A DNA stretch of 20,755 nucleotides, taken from a virus. The position numbers and the translations under genes are program-made. The notes under the pieces were generated by a model. That model saw only the letters and a list, made by a program, of their open reading frames with translations, did not search any database and was not told where the DNA came from. Shown here in pieces: positions 11,582 through 16,672 of this stretch. The stretch covers positions 1 to 20,755 of the IMG/VR virus record IMGVR_UViG_3300046777_000361; one strand, 5' to 3'. The first letter of the stretch is position 1. Each line of letters starts with the position of its first letter.

Positions 11582-12040
11582 TTACTCACCCTCATAAACA
11601 TAATTTTTTTCTACTGGACGCCAACCAAAACGCTCTAAGTCTCTGATTGGACTGTCCATTAGTGTTGTAATTGTAAAATTACTTATTGCACCTGTGTCTT
11701 GTCCCAGTTTACCTACTCTAATATATTCTTTGAGTAATCTATAACCTAAACTGGTATTTCTGTACTCTGGTTCAACCCACCATGCCATTTCTTTCAGTGT
11801 ACGAATATGTGGCAACCAAGGATTACTGTCCACTGCTGCTATAATCATACCCTGTATCTCGCCTTCTACCTCGCCTACAATAATTGTTCCTGCTGCTAGT
11901 ACTTTAGTTAAGAAGTGCTGTACTCCTCGATAATTGTACTTAGGATTATGATAATCCTCAACTGGTGCGGCATTGGCGAAGTTAATCATCAATGCCATTA
12001 TCCTATCAAAATCTTTTATACCTGCAAATCTTATCTTCAT
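11582..12040 (-). CDS. GNAT-family N-acetyltransferase in tail-tip cassette (152 aa)
   Basis: The length and layout match the GNAT fold: N-terminal IRFAGIKDFDRIMALM, central strands (TIIVGEVEGEIQGMIIAAV), motif A at 84-111 (EMAWWVEPEYRNTSLGYRLL), and a C-terminal FGWRPVEKNYVYE motif B. The acetyl-CoA loop normally reads (Q/R)xxGx(G/A); here it is R93-N-T-S96-L-G98, so the first Gly is Ser but the second is kept. The family transfers acetyl groups from acetyl-CoA to amines; the substrate here cannot be read. The gene sits where lambda has K and I (between L-like and J-like genes), starts 7 bases after the previous stop with AGGTG upstream, and abuts the hub gene. It could be packaged or could modify a virion or host protein. 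No sign of frameshift or decay. Confidence 0.8.
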   Translation of the reverse strand: MKIRFAGIKDFDRIMALMINFANAAPVEDYHNPKYNYRGVQHFLTKVLAAGTIIVGEVEGEIQGMIIAAVDSNPWLPHIRTLKEMAWWVEPEYRNTSLGYRLLKEYIRVGKLGQDTGAISNFTITTLMDSPIRDLERFGWRPVEKNYVYEGE

Positions 12041-13374: not shown

Positions 13375-15854
13375 TATCTCACACCTGCTTTTCTGCCGCC
13401 TACTTGTGTAACACTATAGATAAACTGCGGATCACTGCTTACCAATTGTTTGAAACTTGGAGCGTCAACAGCACTGATGTTGTAAATCACATTTGTTGAT
13501 CCGCCACCCATGCCACCTGACTCCATTGCAATGTTTGGATACACATAACCAGCACGACCAAAGCGAACCATTTCAGGTCCACGTTCACCAACTAGATATG
13601 TTTTACCTGCTTGTACTGGACCACCTGCTGCTCTTGCACCACCAAACAAACTTGCAAATGGATTTGTTGCACCACCAAAGATAGAACCAAAGATACCTTT
13701 GACAATATTCTTTGCTGCAAGTTTAGCAATGTCTGCAAGTATGCTGTTGATTAGACTCTTGAAACTTAGTTTGCCTGTCATTACAAAGTTTGTAAATGCA
13801 TCTTCTAGGCCTTGTGTTAGATTACTAAACTGAGTCTGTGCATAGCCTGCCATATCTTCTGTGCTTTGCATCCACTGGCCATATGCTTGTTCCCAACCAT
13901 AACTGAAACTGCGCTGTGTTTCAGCAAACTTTAGTTTCTCTGGTGTTAGGTCATCAAATGCTTTTAGTGTAGCAGTTTTACGTTCTTCTAGACGTGCAAG
14001 ATCTTCTTGTAATTCTTTGTCGTTTTGATCTTTGTATTGACCACGTAATTTTGCTGCTTGTAAGAAGAAGTCATTTTCAATACCAAAGCGTTCTGCTAAA
14101 CGTTCTTTCTTAGCACTATTGAATTCACCATCCAATTGCATCATCTGCTCAAACTCTCGGCGAGCAACTTCTGCATTAGCACCAATGATTTTTAATTCTT
14201 GATTTTGTGTAAATGCTTTTTGTGCGGCATCAATCTTCTTAAGTGATTCTTGTGCAGTATCACCTAATGTCTTATATAATTCTTGTGCTTCAGTTAGTGC
14301 TTTGTTTCTATCTGCGGCACTGAGATTTTCAATGCTGTTGATCTTTCTTAATGTTTCATTGAGATCTTCTTGATTCTTTAATCTTGCTTCTTCTAGTTTC
14401 TTAGCAAGTTCACCAACACCAATGTTCTTTAGTTCGCTGTCTGTGCGATCATTGAGTGCTTTGATTTGATCACGTATTGCCTGTACGTATTCTTCTGCTT
14501 TCTTACGAGCATTCTCCATACGTTCGGCAGCACGTTTTGCATCCTTATCTTCTTTGCCTGCACCCAATTGAACTGGCATGTTGCCAATGTCACGTGGCTT
14601 CTTGCCTTCTGGCTTAGGCACAGCAACATCAAATAATGGAATTGGACCTTGTGCAGTTACAACTGCTTTGGCTTTGTTAAATGCATTAACAACACCATTC
14701 TTAAGCATTTCAACTGTGCTTTGATCACTGAATGGGTTGATAGCATTGACAAATGCTTTGCCTAACACAGGCAATATTTCACCCATAAAGGTAAAGAAGC
14801 CTCGGAAGGCTTGAATCAATGTGTTAACAGCACCAATGCCATAGTTGGCCATTATCTTCAATGCATTGCTGAAACTACCTGTTTGCTGTGTTAGTTCATA
14901 CAACGTTGCACCAACTATAGCAATTGCTGTGGCAATAGCAGTGAATGGGTTACGCATCATCAATGCTTGTACTGTTCTAAAGAATTTGGTGACCATTGCA
15001 ATTGCTGCTGGGCCAAATGCTGCTGTTAGAACAATTAAGAAACTGCTTAGGTTATCAGCAACAAACTGTATTGCACCAGCAATAGCAGAGAAAATACCTG
15101 TGTTGGCTTCTAGTTCGCCAAACAAACTAATAAAACTGTTTTTCAATTGTGTTAGACTTTGACCAATGGTAGGACCCATCTTACCATATTGTGTGTCAAT
15201 GTCCTTGCTCATTTGTAGCGCGGCGGCTGCTAATAGTTCACTGGTTAATTTGCCTTCACTGGCTAATTCTTTTAGGTTAACTTTGCTGTTACCAGTGGCC
15301 TTACTAACTGCTTCGCGCAATTTGTTCATAAACACAGGACTGTTTTCCATCAATGAACGGAATTCGTCACCGTTTAGGCGTCCTGCTGCCATTGCTTGGC
15401 TAAACTGCAACATGCCTGCCGCGGCTTCTGCTGTGCTTGCACCACTTAACTGTGTGGCTTTGGCAAAAGTTTCAGTAATTTGTGCAACTTGATCTTGACT
15501 TAGACCCAAGTCTCTACTGGCAATGCTTAATCTTGTGTAAAGTTTACCTGTTTCTTCGAGTCCTGTACGTGCTGATGCGGCAATATCTTGAATATCTTTG
15601 AATTTGCTGTTTGCTTCTGCTTGGTCTACGCTGAATGCACGCAATCTATTCTGTAGATTGGTATATGTGTCAGCGTAATCGATTACACTTTGTGCTGCAA
15701 TACCAGCAAACAAGCCTTTGAATGCACCACTGATGCTGTCACTGGCGCTGGTTGCACGTTGCTTTAGTGTATCAACTGCTTTGGTTGCACGACCAATACC
15801 AGTTTCAAATCCTCTGGTATCAAGTGTTAATAGGACTTTGATTTCTTTTGCCAT
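13374..15854 (-). CDS. Tail tape measure protein (826 aa)
   Basis: The N-terminal region carries the tape measure hallmark (about 60-180): YTNLQNRLRAF, LYTRLSIASRDLGLS, then GRLNGDEFRSLMENSP. Hydrophobic stretches near 267-290 and 299-319 (AAFGPAAIAMVTKF and FTAIATAIAIVGATLYEL) could enter the membrane during DNA delivery. Residues 430-600 are charged and helical, a likely coiled coil. The C-terminal part resembles lambda gpH: FSNLTQGLEDAFTNFVMTG, then a Gly-rich GGPVQAGKTYLVGERGPEMV. It sets tail length; at lambda's ratio (853 residues for a ~135-150 nm tail) it predicts roughly 130 nm, an estimate. Its start overlaps the previous stop (TAATG). Confidence 0.93.
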   Translation of the reverse strand: MAKEIKVLLTLDTRGFETGIGRATKAVDTLKQRATSASDSISGAFKGLFAGIAAQSVIDYADTYTNLQNRLRAFSVDQAEANSKFKDIQDIAASARTGLEETGKLYTRLSIASRDLGLSQDQVAQITETFAKATQLSGASTAEAAAGMLQFSQAMAAGRLNGDEFRSLMENSPVFMNKLREAVSKATGNSKVNLKELASEGKLTSELLAAAALQMSKDIDTQYGKMGPTIGQSLTQLKNSFISLFGELEANTGIFSAIAGAIQFVADNLSSFLIVLTAAFGPAAIAMVTKFFRTVQALMMRNPFTAIATAIAIVGATLYELTQQTGSFSNALKIMANYGIGAVNTLIQAFRGFFTFMGEILPVLGKAFVNAINPFSDQSTVEMLKNGVVNAFNKAKAVVTAQGPIPLFDVAVPKPEGKKPRDIGNMPVQLGAGKEDKDAKRAAERMENARKKAEEYVQAIRDQIKALNDRTDSELKNIGVGELAKKLEEARLKNQEDLNETLRKINSIENLSAADRNKALTEAQELYKTLGDTAQESLKKIDAAQKAFTQNQELKIIGANAEVARREFEQMMQLDGEFNSAKKERLAERFGIENDFFLQAAKLRGQYKDQNDKELQEDLARLEERKTATLKAFDDLTPEKLKFAETQRSFSYGWEQAYGQWMQSTEDMAGYAQTQFSNLTQGLEDAFTNFVMTGKLSFKSLINSILADIAKLAAKNIVKGIFGSIFGGATNPFASLFGGARAAGGPVQAGKTYLVGERGPEMVRFGRAGYVYPNIAMESGGMGGGSTNVIYNISAVDAPSFKQLVSSDPQFIYSVTQVGGRKAGVR

Positions 15855-16144
15855 TATAGTTTACCCAAATCTCGTTCGAGAATGTTCTCATAGTATTGGA
15901 TAGTTGGGTCACTCATGCCACCTGGTGCTTGACGACTAAACCCTTCATCTAGTTTGCTGGCATAACCATAGTTTGCATTTATAGTTTTGCCCTTTGTAGA
16001 TGTGTTGCGTTTAGCGTTACCAGTATCAATTGGTGTAATCTTACGAAAATGGGTACCAGCACGATCCCAATCCGCCATAGCAGTTTTCATAATATCTCGG
16101 AGTAAACCTTTGAACTCCTTGTCATCAACTTTTAAACTTGCCAC
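15854..16144 (-). CDS. HK97-gp10-like tail/neck protein, GTG start (96 aa)
   Basis: Contains FRKITPIDTGNAKRNTS (residues 33-49) and NYGYASKLDEGF (58-69), the usual core of the HK97-gp10-like family, whose members act in head-tail joining or tail completion. The start is GTG at 16144, supported by GGAG seven bases upstream, and lies inside the end of the frameshifted chaperone extension, an overlap of 20 bases. The stop overlaps the tape measure ATG. The gene is out of its common place: in HK97-like genomes this family lies before the tail tube gene, whereas here it lies between the chaperone and the tape measure. Function is inferred from family memory. Confidence 0.7.
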   Translation of the reverse strand: MASLKVDDKEFKGLLRDIMKTAMADWDRAGTHFRKITPIDTGNAKRNTSTKGKTINANYGYASKLDEGFSRQAPGGMSDPTIQYYENILERDLGKL

Positions 16145-16672
16145 GTGCGTTCTCCATTAACTTTTGCAATTGATCTTGGCTGGCCTTTGGTGCTTTTCCT
16201 TGTTCTTTAGCATTAATATGCTCTCGATAAGAAACAGCAATATCGAACACCCAAATATCTACGGTATTAGCAGTTGCCAATACCTGTGAAGGGAGCATAC
16301 CATACCGTTCGCCCAGCGCATCTAGCATTAAACAAGCATGTAGTTCTGCGCTCCCTTCATTGAGCGAACTACCTGTTACTTTCCCAACTGCTCCACAACT
16401 TTGTTAACGCACTTCATTAACAAGCCAGCAGGCAACACTTGGCCATCCGTCATGACCTTATTGCCATCACTGTCTAAAATGAGGTCGCTACAAAATTCAA
16501 TGATTTTACCGTAGTCTTCTTCGCCGGCACCGGCAAACTTTACAAACTTTTCAATGGGTTGCTTGTCGTACACCCAAAACTCTACGGCTTCGCCATACTT
16601 CTCGATGGTATCTTCATCATCGAGTGTGACTTTTACTAGTTGAGGTTTACTTGCTAAATTCTTTAAGTTCAT
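16125..16672 (-). CDS. Tail assembly chaperone, long frameshift product (GT-like, 182 aa)
   Basis: The product joins the 98-residue chaperone to an 84-residue extension by a -1 ribosomal shift at GGGAAAG (16385-16379), as for lambda gpGT. The frame read after the shift continues with GTA at 16379-16377 and runs without a stop to TGA at 16125. The extension begins VTGSSLNEGSAELHACLML and contains LDALGERYGMLPSQVL, then a helix ending YREHINAKEQGKAPKAS. The separate ORF that seems to start at an ATG at 16328 is best read as this extension: it has no clear ribosome binding site and the frame is open upstream into the slip site. In lambda the T part recruits tail tube protein to the tape measure. 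The same role is inferred here. Confidence 0.85.
16340..16385 (-). promoter_or_regulatory. Programmed -1 ribosomal frameshift signal
   Basis: The slippery heptamer G GGA AAG (16385-16379) is placed in the right phase directly before the TAA of the short chaperone and is identical to the lambda G-T heptamer. Six bases later a hairpin follows (16372-16340): GTAGTTC pairs with GAACTAC, and inside it GCTC pairs with GAGC, with GCA bulged on the 3' side and an eight-base loop. The spacing of six bases is the classic distance for a stimulatory structure. The -1 frame is open until 16125. Confidence 0.85.
16376..16672 (-). CDS. Tail assembly chaperone, short product (G-like, 98 aa)
   Basis: A small acidic alpha/beta protein (VTLDDEDTIEKYGEAVEFW, then KFVKFAGAGEEDYGKIIEF) ending VVEQLGK at a TAA that is the third codon after the start of the slippery site. 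Size, position before the tape measure gene, and the frameshift at its end fit the siphophage tail assembly chaperone that coats the tape measure protein until the tail tube polymerises around it. The start ATG overlaps the stop of the 57-aa ORF (ATGA), so translation is probably coupled. Most ribosomes should make this form and a few percent the long form, as in lambda; the ratio cannot be read here. Confidence 0.85.
   Translation of the reverse strand: MNLKNLASKPQLVKVTLDDEDTIEKYGEAVEFWVYDKQPIEKFVKFAGAGEEDYGKIIEFCSDLILDSDGNKVMTDGQVLPAGLLMKCVNKVVEQLGK

Follow-up and report, generated by a model that had tools for sequence, protein, structure and literature searches.

A lambda-type −1 frameshift signal through which one gene very probably specifies two tail assembly chaperones in a family of uncultivated phages

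The G and G-T products of phage lambda are about 140 and 279 aa long. Lambda makes gpG and gpGT at the heptamer G_GGA_AAG (PMC7618472), and the ratio of gpG to gpGT is near 30:1 (PMC7618472; PMC5009743). The binding partner of gpG is the tape measure protein, and that of T is the tail tube protein (PMC5009743). In an assay, frameshifting in two HK97-like chaperone genes was 6–7%, and the layout of dnaX, in which a slippery heptamer is followed by a stem-loop at short spacing, offers a second point of comparison (PMC3711429).

We analysed a −1 frameshift locus in IMG/VR record IMGVR_UViG_3300046777_000361, which comes from an uncultivated tailed phage; the window is the whole stretch of DNA that was analysed, 20,755 nt. 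All elements of the locus (the ORFs, the slip site and the hairpin) are carried on the minus strand, and their coordinates are collected in the table. At the level of sequence the locus has every hallmark of a tail chaperone frameshift of the lambda G/G-T type. It shares with lambda the G_GGA_AAG heptamer, the −1 direction, a short and a C-terminally extended product, and a gene placed between those for the major tail protein and the tape measure protein (PMC5009743; PMC7618472). It differs from lambda in that the chaperone has no recognisable similarity to its lambda counterpart at the sequence-profile level, its 98- and 182-aa products are shorter, the stop codon abuts the heptamer, a conserved gp10-like gene precedes the tape measure gene, and the clade of this phage has a specific downstream hairpin. 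With dnaX-type −1 sites it has in common a heptamer followed by a stem-loop at short spacing, whereas the gene and the heptamer are different and the phage lacks an upstream Shine-Dalgarno-like stimulator.

Table. Features of the putative frameshift locus and its neighbours, in window coordinates
Feature	Position	Strand	Support
Zero-frame ORF, likely a short, gpG-like tail assembly chaperone, 98 aa	16376..16672	−	61 distinct family sequences; fold matches
Slip site G_GGA_AAG, in the phase that a −1 shift requires	16379..16385	−	GGGAAAN in 60/61 distinct sequences
Zero-frame stop TAA abutting the slip site	16376..16378	−	same placement in 55/61 sequences
Hairpin, 7 + 4 pairs interrupted by a 3-nt bulge, 6 nt 3′ of the slip site	16340..16372	−	near-clade comparison
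Extension in the −1 frame, 84 codons and a stop, putative T-like C-terminal part of a 182-aa fusion	16125..16379	−	third-position bias in the −1 frame
gp10-like gene, 96 aa, GTG start	15854..16144	−	weak match to tail completion/Neck1 (HK97 gp10-like)
Tape measure protein, 826 aa	13374..15854	−	PF20155, E 6.7e-55; PF09718, E 5.5e-18; PHROG 339, E 7.8e-86
Probable major tail protein, 160 aa	17069..17551	−	position and conservation upstream in relatives; no profile match

The zero frame (16672-16376, 98 codons) ends in ...GTT GTG GAG CAG TTG GGA AAG TAA. The heptamer GGGAAAG at 16385-16379 stands in the X_XXY_YYZ phase, the stop codon at 16378-16376 follows it directly, and upon a −1 slip the codons GGA AAG can re-pair as GGG AAA. 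The first-pass annotation had placed the heptamer in the correct phase just before the zero-frame stop, leaving the minus strand unstated, and had called it identical to the lambda G-T site; we agree on both points (PMC7618472). GGGAAAG occurs once in the window, and about 1.1 copies of the bare word are expected by chance. Thus, the word by itself is no evidence; what counts is that the heptamer is in phase and conserved, lies at the stop and is accompanied by an open −1 frame.

To describe conservation we used 61 distinct junction sequences, window included, that came from two scans of viral contigs and group into 44 clusters when cut at 80% identity. In pairwise comparisons within this set, the short products share a median identity of 48% and the extensions one of 35%. 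The split into a zero frame and a −1 extension (79–96 codons) is common to all 61. The heptamer is in phase in every one and reads GGGAAAG in 53, GGGAAAA in 5, GGGAAAC in 2 and GGGGAAG in 1; the proposed search of homologues for a conserved slip site thus returned GGGAAAN with a −1 extension in 60 of the 61, and only one sequence, in a mild way, kept the split while departing from the heptamer. That sequence, L055 (junction after 565-858), retains the stop and the −1 extension, and its GGGGAAG might slip via G-U pairing, as has been proposed for GGGGGAA sites (PMC10885494), or might be a sequence error. The stop lies directly behind the heptamer in 55 sequences. In the other six (L043, L063, L075, L079, L087 and L091) it comes 24–45 nt farther on, which gives the short product a longer tail, and the heptamer, the −1 frame and the extension are retained. 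Leu-Gly-Lys is conserved at the site; as GGA makes up 17% of Gly codons, AAG 35% of Lys codons and G-ending codons 28% of Leu codons elsewhere in the ORFs, coding for these residues alone would give the exact GGGAAAG in only about 2% (0.28 x 0.17 x 0.35). A Shine-Dalgarno-like stimulator 5′ of the site, of the kind seen in dnaX, was rejected, being present in 4 of 61 sequences versus a background of 8%.

The chaperone locus sits between the major tail protein gene, identified by its position, and the tape measure gene, with the gp10-like gene intervening. From its profile matches, the tape measure assignment is firm. Relatives with enough flanking sequence nearly always have the order tail-terminator-like, major-tail-protein-like, chaperone, HK97 gp10-like, tape measure. 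The gp10-like gene overlaps the end of the extension in the window and lies between chaperone and tape measure in almost every relative; it may be coupled translationally to frameshifted ribosomes. A gene like that of a GNAT acetyltransferase (PF00583, E 2.8e-5) was also found within the tail gene cluster, at 11582-12040 of the window. Neither the short product (of the window and of one more distant relative) nor the extension of another relative matched the named phages of INPHARED, and no match was found in bacterial and archaeal genome contigs, so that no host or prophage can be assigned.

The family escapes Pfam and PHROG profiles: searches with the window proteins and with whole alignments gave no tail assembly chaperone match above the cut-off, and one of 39 relatives reached PF16459 in a profile search (E 0.0044). 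A search with the sequences of solved structures gave nothing solid. The short product was modelled with AlphaFold (pLDDT 86), and the best named match of the model in BFVD is A0A6J5LPC3 from an uncultured Caudovirales phage, a close fold match (TM 0.81/0.71, E 1.1e-7, 31% identity) that is called ‘Tail assembly chaperone’ by annotation only; judged from the models, the two proteins probably belong to the same family. The top match among solved structures is the HK97 tail assembly chaperone gp13 (PDB 2ob9; Z 4.5, 79 aligned residues, rmsd 5.0), but this is weak, at 10% identity and a Foldseek probability of 0.23. These fold matches support the identity that had been proposed from the sequence, although gene order and the split gene weigh most, and we conclude that the 98-aa protein is likely to be a tail assembly chaperone.

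The −1 frame is open from 16379 for 84 codons, up to a stop at 16127-16125, and these coordinates confirm the predicted product lengths of 98 and 182 aa (98 + 84) that the first-pass annotation had given. The fusion junction would read ...EQLGK|VTGSSLNEGSAELHACLMLDALGER, with the extension beginning VTGSSL. The extension is predicted to be an 84-aa helical domain. Fold searches with its model gave no informative match, those in the PDB being only common helical arrangements. Four of 29 extensions matched PHROG 6541, which is of unknown function (best E 0.00045); from these matches, PHROG 6541 may represent T-like portions of tail chaperones that were annotated as genes of their own.

Downstream of the heptamer, a spacer of 6 nt (16378-16373) leads into the hairpin, in which 7 pairs (16372-16366 with 16346-16340) and 4 pairs (16365-16362 with 16353-16350) are separated by a 3-nt bulge. 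This is the bulged 11-pair structure described from the sequence alone. On the coding strand of the window it is unremarkable on its own (z = −1.33 against dinucleotide shuffles over 81 nt; z = −0.64 against codon shuffles) and stands out solely in the family comparison. Folding 16330-16385 as had been suggested gave z = −4.3 on the plus strand, but this is the wrong strand, and the value has no bearing on a gene encoded on the minus strand.

The family comparison rests on a near clade of the 17 nearest sequences, which align without gaps over the hairpin region. A 5-pair core (16370-16366 with 16346-16342; columns 16-20 and 40-44) is whole in 15 of them; one pair is broken in L030 and two in L009, which folds into a different hairpin, similarly placed. 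Pairing in the near clade is 85% and drops to 31–54% when the partners are slid by 1–3 columns. The hairpin also covaries. Pair 15-45, at which both bases are third codon positions, is U-A in 8 sequences and C-G in 6, and by parsimony its joint state has changed at least 7 times on the near-clade tree. Pair 21-39, again at two third positions, is A-U, U-A, C-G or U-G in 12 of the 17; the window and the two sequences nearest to it lack this pair and form a shifted inner stem instead. A family-wide hairpin was rejected, since the 44 more distant sequences make 2.18 of 7 pairs versus 2.34 expected. Thus, the stem is found in the near clade and is missing from distant relatives that have the slip site, which makes the hairpin a clade-specific accessory. 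The description of this frameshift as canonical holds for the slip site and fails for the structure, which is limited to the nearest 17 sequences. Four distant relatives (L041, L045, L060 and L064) have another short predicted hairpin of the AGGA...TCCT type at a similar distance 3′ of the slip site (z −2.4 to −3.1), which is perhaps an independently gained structure.

A reader could take the locus to be two separate genes, with ribosomes reinitiating at a start codon within the downstream ORF, for instance ATG 16328, where a 67-codon ORF does open, and with the heptamer being mere Gly-Lys codons. The −1 frame, however, is conserved as protein 5′ of this ATG (VTGSSLxEGSxEL), and in most members protein-like sequence (V-T-x-S...E-L) already begins with the first residue of the extension, upstream of any start codon. 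The position of the first start codon varies among relatives, and a Shine-Dalgarno-like word precedes the start in only 11 of 61. Differences in the −1 frame between close pairs fall mainly at third positions (11, 10 and 21 for W/L001; 5, 3 and 19 for L026/L032). Independent initiation explains neither this bias nor the conservation before the first start codon, and GGGAAAN in nearly every member would not be expected of independent genes. We therefore consider two separate genes very improbable; the pattern argues that the extension evolves as protein and is translated as part of a fusion. A sequencing or assembly error that split an ordinary single gene might come to mind for an uncultivated contig, but many independent metagenomes supplied the 61 distinct sequences that have this split and heptamer, which makes this explanation negligible.

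The core of the hairpin codes for Ser-Ser and Glu-Leu, whose codons can be complementary, and the hairpin could be an accident of protein coding that has no role, the slip site alone being sufficient. Coding constraint thus had to be tested by synonymous recoding, in which each sequence was randomly recoded with the clade's own codon use over 5000 trials. In 11 near-clade representatives 89 of 110 pair cells were paired, versus 55.0 +/- 6.1 under this null, and none of the 5000 trials reached as high a value, although the sequences are related and so the hairpin numbers are not independent. The compensatory changes at the paired third positions 15-45 and 21-39 also speak against an accident. 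On the other side, single near-clade sequences reach only p ~0.02–0.26 for the outer stem, the window's fold is unexceptional against codon shuffles, and the distant relatives manage without a stem. We regard a purely accidental hairpin as unlikely, though a reading to be taken seriously. From its pattern of conservation, the near-clade hairpin is probably a frameshift stimulator that raises or tunes slippage.

We propose a model in which one gene very probably gives rise to two tail assembly chaperones through programmed −1 ribosomal frameshifting. Most ribosomes would terminate at the TAA and release the 98-aa protein. We infer that slippage occurs at G_GGA_AAG, with an efficiency that would shift a minority of ribosomes back by 1 nt, as tRNA-Gly and tRNA-Lys re-pair to GGG and AAA. 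The slipped ribosomes would pass the stop and make the 182-aa fusion with its 84-aa helical domain. The second part of the model concerns the roles of the products, for which lambda gpG/gpGT serves as the analogy: the common part would bind the tape measure protein, whereas the rare fusion would recruit the major tail protein. The last part concerns the hairpin 6 nt downstream, a probable means of raising or tuning slippage in the near clade, window phage included.

The device is already known in kind from lambda G/G-T, and the slip signal, kept as it is in diverse relatives, is almost certainly real. Uncultivated phages with a tail chaperone that is invisible to profiles can now be annotated as having one gene with two products. 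Related sites with and without the downstream hairpin form a natural series for gauging what a hairpin contributes to a tail-chaperone frameshift. We lean towards the view that the window's clade combines a universal GGGAAAG with a stimulatory hairpin, held at a fixed spacing of 6–8 nt and kept by compensatory silent changes, and that its sister lineages use the bare site. If this is true, a frameshift stimulator would have been gained or lost recently inside one chaperone family, and the ratio of short to long product would be tuned differently in each lineage.
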